From the NCBI GenBank assembly GCA_902800715.1, contig CADCFN010000004.1, positions 186,001-250,000 of the forward strand: 64,000 nt of DNA, written 5' to 3'. This document shows positions 1,159 to 38,494 of this stretch, piece by piece (within the stretch, counting starts at the first letter, position 1; every line of letters starts with the position of its first letter). Source of the stretch: an uncultured Bacteroidales bacterium (lineage in GTDB: Bacteria; Bacteroidota; Bacteroidia; Bacteroidales; Muribaculaceae). The notes under the pieces were generated by a model. It was given only the letters and a program-made list of their open reading frames with translations. It was not told the origin of the DNA and searched no databases. Made by a program: the position numbers and the translations under genes.

Positions 1159-2442
1159 CTACTCGCAGGCGTTTGTGGAGTTTTGTGCAGTGGCGTCTTT
1201 GGGGACGACAGGACTCCACAGGTAGAGTTTGTCGCTGGGGCGGATTTTCTCGGACACAGCGATGGAGAAGTGCTCGCCCTTGACGGTCTTCTCGACGGGT
1301 TTGAGGTCCACGCGGATTTCCTCGATGGTCAAGGGAATGGCGCCCGTGGTGGGACCGATAATCCACACCTCGTCGCCCACGTGCAGTTCGCCCGCCTCCA
1401 TGAGGAACTCAGCGACACCGAGTTTGCTGTAGTAGCGGATGCCCTTGGCGGCATAGACTTTTACCCTTGTCGCGCTGGAGCCGTATTTTGCCGACCATTC
1501 GCCCAGGCGCTGCCCCATGTAGTAGCCGTCCCAGAAACCGCGGTTGAAGACCTTTGCCAGCCGCTCGTTCCAGTTATTGATGCGCTCCTCGGTATAGGTG
1601 CCGTCGCAGATGGCCCGCAGTGCCTCGTCATAGCATCCGACCACCGTGCGCACATATTCCGAGCCGCGAGCCCGTCCTTCGATTTTGAACACCGTCACTC
1701 CGGCATCTACCATCTTGTTGAGGAAGTGGATGGTCTTGAGGTCCTTGGGCGACATGATGTATTTGTTCTCGATAGCGAGTTCATCGCCGTTCACCAGGTC
1801 GGTAACCAGGTAGCCGCGTCGGCAAATCTGTCGGCATGCGCCACGGTTGGCGCTGGTATTCTCCTGATGCAGGCTCATGTAGCACTTGCCGCTCACTGCC
1901 ATGCACAAGGCACCGTGGCAGAACATCTCCAGCCTGACGCGCTCGCCGTGAGGCCCGCGAACGTCATTTTCCTCGATGAAACCGGTGATTTTTTTGACCT
2001 GCTCCAGGTTGAGCTCGCGTGCGAGCACCATGACGTCGGCCCACTGGCTGTAATAGCGCACCGCCTCGCTGTTGCTCACGTTGACCTGGGTGGAGATGTG
2101 TACCTCCACGCCGATGGAGCGTGCAAACAGGATGGTCGCCATGTCGCTGGCGATGATGGCGCTCACTTGGGCGTCGCGGGCTGCGGTGACAATCTGTCGC
2201 ATGTAGTCCATATCCTCGTCATAGACGATGGTGTTGACCGTGAGGTAACTCTTCATGCCGTGTTCCTGGCACCATGCGGCGATGGTGCGCAGGTCCTCGA
2301 GTGTGAAGTTGACGCTGGAACGCGAACGCATGTTCAGCCCTTCGATGCCAAAGTAAATGGCGTCGGCACCGCCCTGATGGGCGGCATAGAGCGATTCCCA
2401 GGAGCCCACAGGGGCCATGATTTCAAAATCCTTGCGATTCAT
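1159..2442 (-). CDS. U32 family peptidase-like protein (TrhP/RlhA group)
   Basis: 427 residues. The U32 signature is clear: LEMFCHGALCMAVSGKC followed by SLHQENTSANRGACRQICRR. It supplies the conserved Cys residues that in this family bind an iron-sulfur cluster. The N-terminal part (APVGSWESLYAAHQGGADA) is the usual TIM-barrel start. Although named peptidases, characterised bacterial relatives (TrhP, RlhA) hydroxylate tRNA or rRNA from prephenate-derived chemistry. The length fits TrhP (about 450 residues) better than the longer RlhA, so a role in tRNA wobble uridine modification is an inference. The start ATG lies 15 nt from the end of an inverted-repeat element, so its leader is partly element sequence. 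Confidence 0.85.
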   Translation of the reverse strand: MNRKDFEIMAPVGSWESLYAAHQGGADAIYFGIEGLNMRSRSSVNFTLEDLRTIAAWCQEHGMKSYLTVNTIVYDEDMDYMRQIVTAARDAQVSAIIASDMATILFARSIGVEVHISTQVNVSNSEAVRYYSQWADVMVLARELNLEQVKKITGFIEENDVRGPHGERVRLEMFCHGALCMAVSGKCYMSLHQENTSANRGACRQICRRGYLVTDLVNGDELAIENKYIMSPKDLKTIHFLNKMVDAGVTVFKIEGRARGSEYVRTVVGCYDEALRAICDGTYTEERINNWNERLAKVFNRGFWDGYYMGQRLGEWSAKYGSSATRVKVYAAKGIRYYSKLGVAEFLMEAGELHVGDEVWIIGPTTGAIPLTIEEIRVDLKPVEKTVKGEHFSIAVSEKIRPSDKLYLWSPVVPKDATAQNSTNACE

Positions 2443-2457
2443 ATCTTATTTCTTGAT

Positions 2458-3008
2458 AAACTACGAATTACACAAATTTCACTAATGGCATCCGCATATT
2501 TATTTTTTCTAATTTTACTAATTGATATACACAGATATATGTTTGTCAGTTATTAAGATGCTGGTTTTTGATATTGCAGAAACGCTCTGTTTTTAAACTT
2601 GTTTCGCCAAAATTGGCAAGAATACCCAATTCATATCCTGTAGCTTTCAGGTAATTGATGACCTGGGCTTTTTCAACATCTGATAACTTACTGATGGCTT
2701 TCAATTCGACAATAATCTTGCCGTAGCACACAAAATCAGCGATATACTCTTGCTGTAGAGGAACCCCTTTATAGTATATCTTCATATTGACTTCTCTCTG
2801 GTATGGAATTCCCTCATCGATGAATTCGCGTTCTAATGCTTCCTGGTAAACTTTCTCCAAGAATCCGCACCCCAACTCACGATGAACTTTCATCATGCAA
2901 CCAATAATTTTATATGATTCATTCGGATAGATGATCATACTTATTCGTCAAAATTCGTTATAATTGAATGCGGATGCAAATTAGTTTAATTCGCGTAATT
3001 CGTAGTTT
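2458..3008. mobile_element. Inverted-repeat cassette carrying a GxxExxY gene
   Basis: The left arm (2458-2497) and right arm (2968-3008) are imperfect inverted repeats of about 40 bp. Each starts from the outside with AAACTACGAATTAC, identical for 14 bases, and closes inside with GCATCCGCAT. The only gene between them is the GxxExxY gene. The cassette almost exactly fills the space between the mutS stop codon (3014) and the U32 start codon (2442). A related element without a gene is at 37609-37736. No transposase is present and no target-site duplication is obvious, so the mode of movement is unknown. Confidence 0.7.
2546..2938 (-). CDS. GxxExxY protein
   Basis: 130 residues with the family-naming motif in GCGFLEKVYQEAL, then a block with IADFVCYGKIIVELKAI. 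The spaced D, E and K residues there resemble a PD-(D/E)XK nuclease core. The family is widespread, often in several copies per genome, and has no established function; a nuclease-like role is only inferred. It is the sole gene inside an inverted-repeat cassette, which suggests the gene moves with the repeats. The base composition is more AT-rich than in the flanking mutS and U32 genes, which is consistent with transfer. Confidence 0.88.
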   Translation of the reverse strand: MIIYPNESYKIIGCMMKVHRELGCGFLEKVYQEALEREFIDEGIPYQREVNMKIYYKGVPLQQEYIADFVCYGKIIVELKAISKLSDVEKAQVINYLKATGYELGILANFGETSLKTERFCNIKNQHLNN

Positions 3009-3013
3009 TTAAA

Positions 3014-5635
3014 CTATCGTTGTTTCTTGCCGGTGAGGATACCCTTGATGTCGTAGAGCTTGTTCAGGGCCTCCATGGGCGTGAGGTTGTTGATGTCGAT
3101 GGTGAGAATCTCGTCGCGGATTTGGCTCAGCACGGGGTCATCGAGCTGGAAGATGGACAACTGGTAGCCCGAGCGGCTGCTGGCGACATCGCCCAAATCC
3201 TTGGTGATGGCATTATCGTTGCGATTGTTGTCCTCCAACTGCTTGAGCACCTGGTTGGCGCGTTCGACAATGGTGGGGGGCATGCCGGCGAGTTTTGCGA
3301 CGTGGATACCGAAGCTGTGCTCACTGCCACCTTTGACCAGCTGACGGACAAACACCACCTTGCCATTGATTTCCTTGACGCTCACGTTGTAGTTGACGAT
3401 GCGCTTGAAGGACTTCTCCATCTCGTTCAACTCGTGGTAGTGGGTGGCGAACAGCGTCTTGGGCCGTGTGGCATGTTCATGGATGTGTTCGACAATGCTC
3501 CAGGCGATGGATATGCCGTCGTAGGTGCTCGTGCCGCGTCCCAACTCGTCGAAAAGGATGAGGCTGCGCTGGCTCATGTTGTTGAGGATGGCGGCAGCCT
3601 CGGTCATCTCGACCATAAAGGTGGACTCGCCCAGCGAGATGTTGTCGCTGGCACCCACTCGGGTGAAAATCTTGTCCACAATGCCGATGCGGGCTTGTTC
3701 GGCGGGCACAAAACTGCCCATCTGCGCCATCAGCGTGATGAGCGCCGTCTGGCGCAGCAGCGCCGATTTACCTGCCATGTTGGGGCCTGTGATAATCATG
3801 ATTTGCTGGTCATCGTTGCTTAGGCGGATGCTGTTGGGCACATAGGTCTCGCCCGGCGGCAGCTGACACTCGATGACGGGATGTCGGCCCATGGCGATGT
3901 CGATGTCGAGGCTGTCGTCAAGCACCGGGCGGTTGTAGCGGTTTTCCATCGCTACGCGCGTCAGGGCGTTGAGGCAGTCGAGTTGGGCAATGATGGCGCT
4001 ATCGTTCTGGATGGCAGGGATATACTCAGTCACCGCAGATACCAGTTCATTAAACAGGCGACCCTCGATGATGAGTATTTTCTCTTCGGCACCCAGGATT
4101 TTTTCCTCATATTCCTTGAGTTCCTGTGTCACATAGCGCTCGGCATTGACCAGCGTCTGCTTGCGAATCCACTCCTCGGGCACCTTGTCCTTGTGGGTGT
4201 TGCGCACCTCGATATAGTAGCCGAACACGTTGTTGTAGGCAATCTTCAGACTCGGGATGCCCGTCTGCTCACTCAGGGTGCGTTGCATCGCCACCAGATA
4301 GTCCTTGCCGCTACACGAGATGTCGCGCAGTTCGTCGAGCTGGGCGTCGACACCACGGCAGATGATGTTGCCACGGTTGGTCTGGTTGGGGGCATCGGGG
4401 TTGATTTCACGCTCGATACGGTCGCGGATGATGGTGCAGGGGTTCAGTTGCTCGCCCAGGCTGCGCAGCACGTCACAGGCTGCCTGTGAGCAATACTGCT
4501 TGATGGGTTCGATGGCCTGCAGGGCACTCTTGAGCTGTACCAGTTCGCGCGGGGTGATGCGTCCCACGGCAGCCTTGGACGTCAGGCGTTCCAGGTCCCC
4601 GATGAGTTCCAGACGTTCCCTGATGAGTTCGCGCCCCTCGGGGTCCCGCATGAAATGCTCTACCACGTCCAGGCGGCGGTTGATGGCCTTGACATCCTGG
4701 AGGGGGAAGAGCACCCAGCGTCTCATCATGCGTCCGCCCATCGGCGAGATGGTGCGGTCGATGACGTCGAGCAGCGACTTGCCGTCATCACTCATGGGAG
4801 CTACGAGCTCCAGGTTGCGGATGGTGAATTTGTCGAGGCGCACATACCGTTCAGCCTCGATGCGTGACAGGTGGGTGATGTGGCCCAGCTGGGTGTGCTG
4901 TGTGATGTCGAGGTAGTGCAGGATGGCACCGCTGGCGATGATGGCATTGTCCATGCTGGTGATGCCGAAGCCCTTGAGGTTGCGCGTCTCGAAGTGCTTC
5001 AACAGGCGGTCGTTGGCAGCCTCGAAGGTGAACACCCAGTCCTCGAGTTCAAACGTCAGGTAACGCGACGAGAACGTAGCGGCAAAGCGCTGGCGGTTGC
5101 TTCGCTCGATAAGTACCTCCTTGGGCGAGAAATTGACCAGCAGTTTATCGATGTACTCCTCGTTGCCCTCGGCGGTGAGGAACTCGCCCGTGCTGATGTC
5201 GAGAAACGCCACTCCCAGCATCTTCTTGCCGAAGTGGACGGCGGCCAGGAAGTTGTTCTCCTTGCGGTCGAGCATCGTGCCACCGACGACCACGCCGGGT
5301 GTCACCAGCTCGGTGATGCCGCGCTTGACGAGCTTTTTGGTGAGTTTGGGGTCTTCCAACTGGTCACAGATGGCTACGCGCTTGCCCGCCCGCACCAGTT
5401 TGGGCAGGTAGGTGTCGAGCGCATGGTGGGGGAAGCCCGCCATCTCAGTCGCCGCAGCCGCACCGTTGCTGCGTCGTGTCAGGGTGATGCCCAGTATCTC
5501 GCTGGCAGTCACAGCGTCTTCCAGATAAGTCTCATAGAAGTCTCCCACACGGAACAGCAGCACGGCGTCGGGATGCTTGGCTTTCATCTCGACGAACTGC
5601 TTCATCATTGGCGTATTCAGCGGGTCCTTTGCCAT
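3014..5635 (-). CDS. mutS: DNA mismatch repair protein MutS
   Basis: Recognises mismatches and starts repair. About 873 residues from the chosen start. The N-terminal mismatch-reading motif is [13 protein letters not shown] (Phe-Tyr-Glu). The ATPase has Walker [14 protein letters not shown], the STFMVEM segment, Walker B with [12 protein letters not shown], and ATHYHEL. The C-terminal helix-turn-helix dimerisation region is present. An in-frame ATG further upstream (5683) would add 16 residues, but it lies upstream of the -7 box at 5664-5671 and so probably of the transcript itself; [11 protein letters not shown] at 5635 is the family-typical start. The gene is divergent from tyrS and followed directly by the GxxExxY cassette. 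Confidence 0.97.
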
Positions 5636-5663
5636 CTCTATCGCTACATTATAAATTGAACTA

Positions 5664-5692
5664 CAAAGGTAATATATTTTCAAACAACCAAA
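5664..5692 (-). promoter_or_regulatory. Promoter of mutS
   Basis: On the minus strand, TTTG (5689-5692) and TACCTTTG (5664-5671) are 17 nt apart. This matches the Bacteroidetes -33/-7 pattern and puts the transcript start at about 5657. Confidence 0.6.
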
Positions 5693-7117: not shown

Positions 7118-7939
7118 ATGGAACAGAATGATTTCAATAAACTGAAGGATGCGATTGTCGAAGCCAAACAGGAAATGAGGCAATCTCAGGCACGAATCGA
7201 CAAACTCGTCGATGAACTGATGAGCGATCAGGACACATCAATCCTGTTAGATGCGATTCTCCATGCCCAACACAGAAAAAGGGTTCATCATTGGCCGCCA
7301 CCCTGGCGTCCGTGGGTTTATGAGGACACCAAAAAGAGTGGTGGCGCTCTTGACCATCACTTGGTTGATGACTGGGGCGGACTGATCCGAAGTGGTGGCG
7401 CTCTTGACCATCACTTGGTTGATGACTGGGGCGGACTGATCCGAAGTGATGGCGGCTTCTCAAATGAAGAAATTCAAATTATCGTGAATTACGCCAAGAC
7501 GCTCAAATCAGCACTACAGTCCGACATCGACTTCCTTGACGAGGTGATTGAGCAAGTGCAGGATCCTACCAGAGCAGGACTTACGCCTGAACAGCTTGCC
7601 AGGATGGATTATATCTCTAAGCATAATTCCCGTGGCATCTTTCCTCCTTGGAAACCGCTTATAGCACCACCGGAGACGATGCGATACTACGAGAATAAAG
7701 ACGATTATAATCCCAAAGATCTAACGAACTTAGTCATCCCTCGCATGACACAAAAGGAAATTGACGACCTGCTCGCGAAACTCAAGGAACAAGGGATACT
7801 GAAAAGCGCTGATGTCAAAGTGGTGCTGGACGGTATCATCGACATGTTCAAGAACATGGAGCCCAAGAACCGTGGTCTTGTACAAGCTATAGCACACTGT
7901 GAGAAAATCAAACAGATGCTGGCAGAAGCAGGCTATTAA
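7118..7939 (+). CDS. Unrecognised helical protein with an 18-residue tandem duplication (MEQN family, copy 1)
   Basis: 273 residues, no family recognised. It begins MEQNDFNKLKDAI with a charged, probably coiled-coil helix (about residues 1-50), followed by a Trp/Pro-rich segment (HHWPPPWRPWVYED). Then come two identical copies of SGGALDHHLVDDWGGLIR, and further helical segments that open with phrases such as SNEEIQ, TPEQLARM and TQKEIDDL. A second Pro/Trp patch (RGIFPPWKPL) lies near residue 180. There is no signal peptide or membrane segment, so it is probably cytoplasmic. It starts 53 nt after tyrS and is followed by a duplicated tyrS end. Its start and segment style match the gene at 8372-9361, so the two look like relatives. 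The function is unknown. Confidence 0.7.
   Translation: MEQNDFNKLKDAIVEAKQEMRQSQARIDKLVDELMSDQDTSILLDAILHAQHRKRVHHWPPPWRPWVYEDTKKSGGALDHHLVDDWGGLIRSGGALDHHLVDDWGGLIRSDGGFSNEEIQIIVNYAKTLKSALQSDIDFLDEVIEQVQDPTRAGLTPEQLARMDYISKHNSRGIFPPWKPLIAPPETMRYYENKDDYNPKDLTNLVIPRMTQKEIDDLLAKLKEQGILKSADVKVVLDGIIDMFKNMEPKNRGLVQAIAHCEKIKQMLAEAGY
7337..7444 (+). repeat. Perfect 54-bp tandem duplication
   Basis: Units 7337-7390 and 7391-7444 are identical over 54 bp and keep the reading frame (18 residues each). The lack of any difference means the duplication is recent or kept uniform. Confidence 0.95.
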
Positions 7940-8099: not shown

Positions 8100-8371
8100 T
8101 GAAATGACGGTGTGTCATAATTGCAATTACAGCAAAAGAATCCGTGCTACGCACGGAGAAATTAAACAAAATTTGTATAAAAATTAAACAAGTCATTTTT
8201 TATTTTAATTTTATTTATAATTTTGTTCTATTTCTCGGCCGTTAGGCCGATTAAAAAGCCAGAGGCGAATTATGACACATCCTCTTATCTTTACTACCCT
8301 AAAAGACAAATACATAATCCAATAACCGGGATAAAACCCTCTAATATTAACCAACTAACTTATATCTTATT
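8100..8371. other. AT-rich intergenic stretch between the two repeat-protein genes
   Basis: No credible gene. It holds two short hairpins: TCCGTGC/GCACGGA near 8141-8157, and TCGGCC/GGCCGA at 8235-8250. A very A/T-rich run at 8160-8230 lies between them. These may end the upstream transcript or form part of the leader of the next gene. A weak TATCTTTA near 8285 is the best promoter candidate. Confidence 0.4.
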
Positions 8372-31090: not shown

Positions 31091-31135
31091 CGACATAATA
31101 TCCAGAGCATCAAGCAATCTGCACCCTTTTTATAA

Positions 31136-31210
31136 CACGAATGCCCATAAATGTCCATGAATCATCATAAAATATTTATGACCATTCGTGACCATTCACG
31201 GGCATTCGTG
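31136..31210. repeat. 75-bp imperfect palindrome
   Basis: The two halves (about 31136-31172 and 31174-31210) match as reverse complements at 28 of 37 positions by hand alignment. Both outer ends read CACGAATGCCC. It is made of words like CATTCGTGACCATTC. It lies between the permease promoter and the end of the BspA-like gene and looks like a small interspersed repeat that may also end the BspA-like transcript. Confidence 0.65.
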
Positions 31211-31250
31211 TTTATTATCTTGTTTTTTTGCGTATGCCTGGGCAGATGCT

Positions 31251-37050: not shown

Positions 37051-37593
37051 TTAGCGTGAGGTCAGGGTGGCAAGGGTGGAGAGGAGTTCGGTTGTGGTGC
37101 GGGCGACGAGGGTGCAGGAGAGGTTCTTGCCGCGGGCGAAGGGGGTGCGTGTGAGGTCAGCAAGTTGTTGGATGGTGGCATCGTACATGCCGTCGAGGTT
37201 GGCGACGATGACGGGGCGTGTGTCGTCATTGCCGATGGTCATGACGGCGAGGGTGGACATCCACTCGTCGATGGTGCCGATGCCGCCGGGCTGGATGACG
37301 AACACGTCACCATGCTCAATCATATATTGCTTGCGGTCGCCCAGATTGGCGGTATAGACTACCTCGTCACACAAGGGGTCGATGCGGTGCCTGAACATCT
37401 CGGGAATGACGCCGATGACGTGGCCACCAGCTTCATGAACGGCAGCAGCGGTGATGTGCATCAGGCCTGCATTGGAGCCGCCATAAAGCAGCGTGTGGCC
37501 GTTCTGGCCAATCCATGTACCCAGGGCGGCGGCCAGTTGCTGGTATTTCTTCTCCAGTCCCTCCATGGAACTGCAATAAACGACAATCTTCAT
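37051..37593 (-). CDS. LOG family protein (nucleoside 5'-monophosphate phosphoribohydrolase type)
   Basis: 180 residues, Rossmann fold with the LOG signature PGGIGTIDEWMSTLAVMTIG and the early LYGGSNAGLM. Members split AMP or cytokinin riboside monophosphates to base and ribose 5-phosphate. The bacterial role is often purine salvage and is inferred here. It is transcribed after tsaE and birA on the same strand, but a 128-bp inverted-repeat element separates it from birA and ends 15 nt before its ATG. Confidence 0.9.
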   Translation of the reverse strand: MKIVVYCSSMEGLEKKYQQLAAALGTWIGQNGHTLLYGGSNAGLMHITAAAVHEAGGHVIGVIPEMFRHRIDPLCDEVVYTANLGDRKQYMIEHGDVFVIQPGGIGTIDEWMSTLAVMTIGNDDTRPVIVANLDGMYDATIQQLADLTRTPFARGKNLSCTLVARTTTELLSTLATLTSR

Positions 37594-37608
37594 ATTTTTG
37601 TTATTTAT

Positions 37609-37736
37609 AAACTACGAATTACGCTAATTATACCAATTGGTATCCACATTCTTCTTTATTGTCGGCGAATTAAACGGATTGACAGGATTAGGCATCCGTT
37701 GCGTAGCCTTTGTTTAATTCGCGTAATTCGTAGTTT
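37609..37736. mobile_element. Gene-less inverted-repeat element related to the GxxExxY cassette
   Basis: The outer ends read AAACTACGAATTACGC on the left and the matching reverse complement on the right (GCGTAATTCGTAGTTT). Inside are GAATTAAAC, GGCATCCG and GTATCCAC words like those of the arms at 2458 and 2968. It is about 128 bp long with no gene, as expected of a deleted or miniature form of the cassette. Like the full cassette it fills an intergenic gap, here between birA and the LOG gene. Confidence 0.7.
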
Positions 37737-37741
37737 TTTAT

Positions 37742-38494
37742 TTACAGGACTATTTCGTTGATGATGTGCTTGACTTCCTTGAAAAGGTAGTCGTGGGTAG
37801 TGCCGTCCTCGTGGCGCAGGGTGAGAGTGCCGTCGGGGTCGATGCCTGCCACGTTGGCATTGAAACGGTGGCCACTGGCGTCCTCATAGGGGTGCAACTC
37901 GCCGTCGTTGCGGTAGAGTGCAGCCATGTAGCGCTGGTGCAGGTCGTTGCGGGCATTGTCGTCGGCAAGTCCATCTGCCAGTTGCTCGATGCGGGAACAG
38001 ACCTTTTTCAGTAGCGCCATCAGGTCGTGCTCACGGCTCGTGATATTGATGAGTGAGACCGGGTTGGGCGCATCGCTCAAGAAGCGCTCCTGATTGACGT
38101 TGATGCCGATGCCCACAATGCTGTGGGCAATATTGCTGCCGTCGAGCGAACTCTCGATAAGCATGCCGCAGACCTTCTTGTCACGCCAATAGACGTCGTT
38201 GGGCCACTTGACCGAAAAGCCGTCGCCAGCCTCGGCGCTCAGCGCCTCGACGACAGCCAGCGCTGCCGCCTCGCTCAGGTAGAACTGGTCGCGGGCTTTG
38301 ACGGGTGGTCGCTTGAGGAGCATGGAGAATGTGAGGTTCTTGCCATCCTCGCTCTCCCAGGAATTGCCTTTCTGGCCGCGTCCTGCAGTTTGGCTGGGGG
38401 TATAAATGACCGTACCGCCTGGCAGCGTGGCTGCCAAGCGGGACAGGTAAGTGTTGGTGCTTGCCGTCTGGCTGACCTTGATGTAGTGTGGCAT
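37742..38494 (-). CDS. birA: Biotin--[acetyl-CoA-carboxylase] ligase
   Basis: 250 residues, the catalytic type without the N-terminal repressor HTH. It activates biotin with ATP and attaches it to the carboxyl carrier protein. Motifs are TASTNTYLSRL, the biotinyl-AMP loop GRGQKGNSWESEDGKNL, and VKWPNDVYWRDKKVCGMLIE. It lies 12 nt downstream of tsaE in the same direction, so the two are probably one transcript. Confidence 0.95.
   Translation of the reverse strand: MPHYIKVSQTASTNTYLSRLAATLPGGTVIYTPSQTAGRGQKGNSWESEDGKNLTFSMLLKRPPVKARDQFYLSEAAALAVVEALSAEAGDGFSVKWPNDVYWRDKKVCGMLIESSLDGSNIAHSIVGIGINVNQERFLSDAPNPVSLINITSREHDLMALLKKVCSRIEQLADGLADDNARNDLHQRYMAALYRNDGELHPYEDASGHRFNANVAGIDPDGTLTLRHEDGTTHDYLFKEVKHIINEIVL

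Follow-up and report, generated by a model that had tools for sequence, protein, structure and literature searches.

The cassette between mutS and a peptidase gene

Near its start, the window (the whole stretch of 64,000 nucleotides analysed here) carries a small cassette built as arm, GxxExxY gene and arm, in which each arm holds about three tandem sites of 8-10 bp and the two arrays are mutually inverted. It is not located in 23S rRNA, but sits between two protein genes, which we take to be mutS and a member of the peptidase U32 family (Table 1). The initial annotation had described imperfect inverted repeats of 40 bp around the GxxExxY gene alone, and alignment, inspection by eye and the list of open reading frames all confirm this. 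The inverted arms computed at 2453-2486 and 2980-3013 are 34 nt long and 82% complementary, the limits read by eye (those of Table 1) give 40-41 bp, and the outer and inner ends, AAACTACGAATTAC and GCATCCGCAT, match in both arms as had been claimed. The arm at 2458-2497 consists of a unit of about 9 bp present three times, ACTACGAATT-ACACAAATT-TCACTAAT, followed by GGCATCCGCAT. The GxxExxY gene is the sole ORF of at least 60 aa that lies fully between the arms, and no transposase is found there. When aligned with each other, the arms score 25, against a maximum of 13 in 408 windows of the same geometry across the rest of the 64 kb, and they are not a product of chance. Scores above those of the window controls were obtained when 35 GxxExxY loci were cross-paired (95% point 16.5, 99% point 28.6), because different loci have similar arms.

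Table 1. Features of the cassette, its neighbours and related gene-free repeats (positions in the window)
Feature	Position	Strand	Remarks
Flanking gene, presumed peptidase U32 family	1159..2442	-	start codon 15 bp from cassette
Arm downstream of GxxExxY gene	2458..2497	.	outer end at 2458
GxxExxY gene	2546..2938	-	130 aa; RecB/Cas4-like PD-(D/E)XK nuclease fold; co-directional with mutS and the U32-peptidase gene
Arm upstream of GxxExxY gene	2968..3008	.	outer end at 3008; inverted copy of 2458..2497
Flanking gene, presumed mutS	3014..5683	-	stop codon 5 bp from cassette
Gene-free hairpin	8156..8236	.	arms match GxxExxY arms of G006 and G021 (L389, L392); score 23, best of 20 shuffles 15
Gene-free hairpin	31134..31212	.	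arms match GxxExxY element of G009 (L361); score 27, best of 20 shuffles 12
Gene-free pair, window arm family	37592..37753	.	arms match GxxExxY arms in other genomes

The protein encoded in the cassette matches the GxxExxY models TIGR04256 (E 1.2e-43, 148.1 bits, curated cut-off 35) and PF13366 (E 1.1e-40, 139.1 bits, curated cut-off 22). No NCBIfam model besides TIGR04256 matched it, so it is not an S23 or four-helix-bundle ORF. Residues G25, E28, Y31, D68, E78, K80, Q92 and Y96 do not vary in an alignment of 23 sequences, which defines an invariant set of motifs, E, D, ExK and QxxxY. These are presumably the catalytic residues of a PD-(D/E)XK enzyme, and the PD-(D/E)XK-like residues pointed out at the outset are thus invariant. 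The AlphaFold model of the protein has a mean pLDDT of 91.7, and a structure search with it gave one match at E ≤0.001, SSO0001 (E 2.8e-4). Weaker matches (E >0.001) were to lambda-type exonucleases, RecB-family nucleases, the R2 endonuclease and tRNA-splicing endonucleases, the last of which cut RNA. At the window locus, dN/dS values of 0/0.061 against G036 and of 0.017/0.36 against G019 show that the gene is under purifying selection.

The accessible parts of the open-licence literature mention the GxxExxY family in passing only, and no described role was found in them. No PADLOC defence-system model matched the protein at E ≤1, on which ground identity as a defence system was rejected. A phage origin was also discarded, as phage records gave no match to the query used (L071) and PHROG matches were weak, the best being an endonuclease at E 0.0025. 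Plasmid records matched by one GxxExxY query number 8 of 72,556. With one query each, phage and plasmid records therefore indicate no known vehicle between hosts.

Arms and repeat spacing across the family

The GxxExxY family is present in 37 of 41 draft genomes of the genus (source genome included), with 138 match rows, and four drafts show no copy. After four pairs of rows were merged and five fragments dropped, 129 loci remained, which include orthologous sites and are therefore not independent; arms score above 13 in 120 of them and above 14.5 in 112, and two of the nine loci below the threshold, L092 and L440, show arms by eye. Genes for HU from the same genomes served as a control and exceeded 13 in 4 of 29 cases, with a maximum of 14.5 (one of 30 was left out for its short flank). 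A wide scan of species genomes, in which the best 80 of the matches were listed, yielded 77 loci with sufficient flank. Arms reached at least 14, the 95% point of 5852 cross-pairs, in 53 of these 77, from about ten phyla, and 24 fell below; by eye, L182 and L185, both among the 53, do not look like repeat arrays. Within these best 80 matches, loci with arms were counted in Bacteroidota (30/51), Planctomycetota (5/5), Betaproteobacteria, Acidobacteria and Desulfo-groups (3/3 each), Verrucomicrobia and Alphaproteobacteria (2/2 each), Cyanobacteria and Cloacimonadota (1/2 each), Ignavibacteria, a Rhodohalobacter and a Methanosarcinales archaeon (1/1 each), and Marinimicrobia (0/1), the groups being taken from the titles of records that are mostly MAGs, single ones of which may be misbinned. 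Both counts, in the genus and among the best matches of the wide scan, support the initial proposal that the GxxExxY gene and its arms form one unit, and do so family-wide.

Despite differing in sequence, the arms of these loci share a common design, that of inverted arrays of short direct repeats. The repeat period is mostly 9, and 8 or 10 in some subfamilies of the protein: the commonest period per protein cluster was 9 in 32/35 and 25/36, 8 in 13/22 and 10 in 9/26, and protein cluster 3 has no clear single period. Moreover, arm likeness follows protein likeness, with a rho of 0.49 for 28 loci (370 pairs, possibly orthologous pairs excluded; 0/5000 permutations) and of 0.21 for 120 loci (6892 pairs, 248 possibly orthologous pairs excluded; 0/1000 permutations), although the permutation ignores shared ancestry. 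Gene and arms may thus owe some of this correlation to having descended together, as would be expected of a joined unit in any case. Mismatches between the two arms amount to 5.4% at the phases conserved among repeats vs 28.5% at the variable phases (51 loci of period 9), and on the sense strand G.U mismatches show no excess over A.C (136 v 154, 54 v 68 and 31 v 28). Since mismatches avoid the repeat cores and carry no G.U bias, the arms look like DNA-binding arrays rather than RNA stems, and the lack of bias led us to reject the reading of the arms themselves as stems.

The gene upstream of the cassette is co-directional at 25 of 30 GxxExxY loci, a set obtained from 35 by excluding two orthologues and three loci without arms. 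Calls of the downstream gene are less secure, because the ORF caller misassigned the U32 gene in L001, where it picked an antisense ORF instead.

The initial annotation asked whether every full copy encodes a GxxExxY protein, which does not hold for this layout, as an unrelated family shares it. The four-helix-bundle (TIGR02436) genes of the genus (L098-L127) lie between inverted arms, mostly made of 7-bp repeats, which score at least 12 in 29 of 30 cases and above 13 in 27 of 30, with a co-directional upstream gene in 25 of 29. GxxExxY and four-helix-bundle genes were seen about 1 to 2.4 kb apart in three genomes (G001:C66, G008:C96 and G024:C4). An inner motif, GGCATCCGC, lies beside the arms of two GxxExxY families and of one four-helix-bundle element (window 2487-2497, L085 and L103).

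Gene-free arms and the state of orthologous sites

The source genome, a draft with a completeness of 88.9%, contains six GxxExxY copies in seven match rows, one of them frameshifted, and all six are bounded by inverted arms whose sequence differs from copy to copy. The other copies are 33-65% identical to the window protein. Divergent as they are, and each with other arms, they are therefore not recent duplicates of one element.

The arm motif of the window occurs at 53 sites of this genome with at most two mismatches, vs 1 for the reversed control. By hand count, 14 pairs of window-family arms lie less than 600 bp apart, all 14 in the order plus then minus. One of these pairs encloses the gene; the other 13 are gene-free and, with a span of 57 to 212 bp, too short to contain it, so that, contrary to the initial interpretation, most arms lie without the gene. 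The other 25 sites occur singly or as direct tandem copies; two groups in direct order, of three and four copies and not forming inverted pairs, are found at G000:C5:668-914 and C4:308413-308587. For a second arm family (CTCACGCTAAG), 84 sites were counted vs 0 in the control, and one pair of it encloses the GxxExxY copy at C4:291632. Gene-free arms are more numerous than gene-bearing ones in the source genome. Over 38 genomic arm sites, conservation drops off past about 28 bp. By eye, window-family arms at L035:1500-1720 surround a second inverted repeat, itself around a gene-free hairpin, and this innermost hairpin resembles the arms of the C8 GxxExxY copy.

The window itself has 25 inverted-repeat pairs of at least 18 nt within 900 bp, several of which are intergenic hairpins. 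Gene-free repeats with arms like those of GxxExxY elements are given in Table 1, and the inverted repeats at 1086, 22657 and 51276, which match GxxExxY arms no better than shuffles, look in our opinion like terminators. Apart from these repeats, an ORF at 7118-7939 has a tandemly repeated segment, with SGGALDHHLVDDWGGLIR present twice early in the protein.

In 17 near-clade genomes, the number of gene-free arms did not differ significantly between carriers of the cognate gene (40, 28, 6, 19, 104, 8, 38 and 34) and non-carriers (41, 25, 24, 43, 0, 1, 12, 26 and 3; Mann-Whitney p=0.16). The lack of a significant difference speaks against strict dependence in trans, and a dependence of arm number on that gene was rejected for these near relatives.

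The presence and absence at sister sites foreseen in the initial annotation was found, as orthologous gaps appear in full, deleted, one-armed and empty states, a pattern that could be the result of losses. For the mutS gap, 30 loci were read from 40 genomes with a match, and both flanks were found in 12, comprising 3 with the full cassette, 1 with an internal deletion, 1 with another insert and 7 without. The internally deleted form, in G006 (L043), retains both arms and the start of the gene. The insert in the mutS/U32 gap of G018 (L042) measures about 1.26 kb, contains an ORF that looks ATPase-like by eye, and is unrelated to the cassette. The L006 site, read in 18 of 30 fetched loci, shows the gene in 3 (broken in G025), a single arm by eye in 4, and other states in 11, the near relative G036 included. 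At the L005 site (19 of 30 fetched loci) the gene is present in 13 and absent in 6, two of these 6 being without a detected downstream neighbour, and the arm types follow the gene clade by eye. The flanking gene DNA of this site is 95% identical between G036 and G000. Between the same two genomes the GxxExxY protein reaches 65% identity, while the G036 and G021 proteins share 81%, and identity falls at the arms. In our reading, one cassette has probably been exchanged for another at this site; had the cassette merely evolved faster, the greater similarity to G021 would be left unexplained.

In the gap at 37.6 kb, the same gene-free hairpin is present in G036, and G007 and G019 hold other arrays, of period 7 by eye. 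No target-site duplication was seen by eye at the compared sites, where the surroundings of the arms differ too much, and no clean empty site with a target duplication was found, the same gaps in other species carrying other short repeats. Likewise, no movement was observed at the compared orthologous sites.

A candidate one-gene mobile element

On balance, we consider it probable that the window cassette represents a mobile element with a single gene, in its gene-bearing version, and that the encoded nuclease recognises the arms of its own unit and moves that unit. The RecB/Cas4-like PD-(D/E)XK nuclease would recognise the arrays of its own element, the subfamily setting the spacing of the sites, as their covariation suggests. 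It would cut DNA at or close to the arrays, and host repair might then place a copy between other genes, including where a related cassette is already present. Expression would come from read-through, the cassette being mostly oriented like the upstream gene, and internal deletion would yield the more numerous gene-free hairpins, possibly moved in trans. We know of no lone PD-(D/E)XK enzyme of the GxxExxY type that transposes anything. The original suggestion that the gene is the cargo or the mobility factor of a small element agrees with the gene-arm unit and with the presence and absence at sites, and needs qualification in that most arms are gene-free.

It is unlikely, in our estimate, that the cassette is instead an RNA element comparable to the intervening sequences (IVS) of rRNA, where the arms would form a transcript stem. 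Excision of this stem by RNase III or the protein itself would make insertion into an operon harmless, and movement would occur by other means. The four-helix-bundle family of 23S IVS does have the same layout here, with period 7, the cassettes mostly share the orientation of the gene upstream, and tRNA-splicing endonucleases are among the weak structure matches; however, G.U does not exceed A.C among the sense-strand arm mismatches, and these mismatches track the repeat phase. Less likely again is a separate transposase (a RAYT or other) that moves the arms, with GxxExxY as cargo. As far as the available part of PMC3733652 goes, REPtrons and TIRtrons give a precedent of transposase genes between terminal inverted repeats together with dispersed palindromes, and the source genome has two Y1_Tnp matches of 27.0 and 24.5 bits, barely above the cut-off of 23. 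However, no RAYT gene (Y1_Tnp) is next to the window cassette, both matches being on other contigs (C5 and C3), and no arm of the two families examined lies within 1.5 kb of either, which led us to reject these marginal matches as the mover. Moreover, arm sequence and period track the GxxExxY protein, which a transposase acting in trans would not require.

We see a slimmer chance still that the protein is a nuclease or regulator useful to the host, which acts at many arm sites from a cassette that is not selfish. Purifying selection and the numerous gene-free sites would suit such a role, but patchy orthologous presence, decayed copies and the apparent cassette replacement would not, nor would the different repeats of other species in the same gap and the 4 of 41 drafts that show no copy. 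Hardly credible at all is chance or passive trapping, where the gene landed in one of many intergenic palindromes. Such palindromes abound in the window, with 25 inverted-repeat pairs and several intergenic hairpins, but the explanation is already contradicted by the association of gene and arms (120/129 GxxExxY vs 4/29 HU loci), to which the recurrence of arms in other phyla among the best 80 matches of the wide scan and the arm-protein covariation are added.

The mobile element that we favour has likenesses to several known systems. According to the available part of PMC4990558, the 23S rRNA IVS has a terminal stem, with heptamers in tandem ahead of a four-helix-bundle ORF; the latter encodes the S23 protein, for which no function is known. 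The GxxExxY cassette has an IVS-like layout; however, it encodes an unrelated protein, lies between protein genes, has a period of mostly 8-10 and not 7, and its arm mismatches give no hint of selected RNA pairing. In REPtrons and TIRtrons, as described in the portion of PMC3733652 at hand, the repeats flank a gene and are also dispersed gene-free between genes, and the encoded enzyme is proposed to recognise the repeat. The cassette gene also has flanking repeats that occur gene-free in intergenic DNA, but it encodes a PD-(D/E)XK nuclease in place of a Y1 transposase, and the arms, which belong to several families, are tandem arrays in inverted orientation, unlike the one-ended GTAG-tagged palindromes of REPtrons. 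As in MITEs, there are short gene-free inverted-repeat copies related to a coding element (13 pairs, L043 and window hairpins), with L043 as a deletion derivative, although the proposed parent is not a known transposon and a target-site duplication was not found by eye. Homing and mobility nucleases of the PD-(D/E)XK class include TnsA, the I-Ssp6803I type and the R2 endonuclease. GxxExxY shares fold and catalytic residues with them and with Cas4/RecB nucleases, but its unit is a stand-alone protein of 130 aa with its own inverted arrays, and without a partner transposase, Cas1 or reverse transcriptase.

With no internal transposase, no RAYT accompanied by the tested arms and no rRNA site, the known kinds therefore fail on defining features. 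By analogy, the cassette would resemble a REPtron with its MITEs in working and an IVS in layout, with a different enzyme and spacing rule, and it suggests a type of minimal mobile element that has yet to be described. No description of such a gene-arm element was found in the open-licence literature, including the available parts of PMC8934634, PMC3733652 and PMC4990558, a description elsewhere being possible. This literature makes no mention of the arm sequence strings, and the spacing rule was not met in its accessible parts on IVS/S23, palindromes and GxxExxY. A broader proposal, which we hold with more reserve as a possibility, is a superfamily of one-gene mobile elements in many phyla, where a stand-alone PD-(D/E)XK nuclease, or a four-helix-bundle protein in a related class, reads inverted arrays and spreads both itself and gene-free hairpins through intergenic DNA, the 23S IVS being a specialised branch. 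The protein would then set the spacing, 7 for four-helix-bundle proteins and 8, 9 or 10 for GxxExxY subfamilies.

The finding ties the widespread GxxExxY family to intergenic palindromes that have no known maker, and suggests that the spacing of a repeat may identify the protein that reads it. A link may extend to the S23 protein of rRNA intervening sequences as well. If the nuclease moves DNA, it would be a mobility enzyme from a class of which, to our knowledge, no member is known to act alone.
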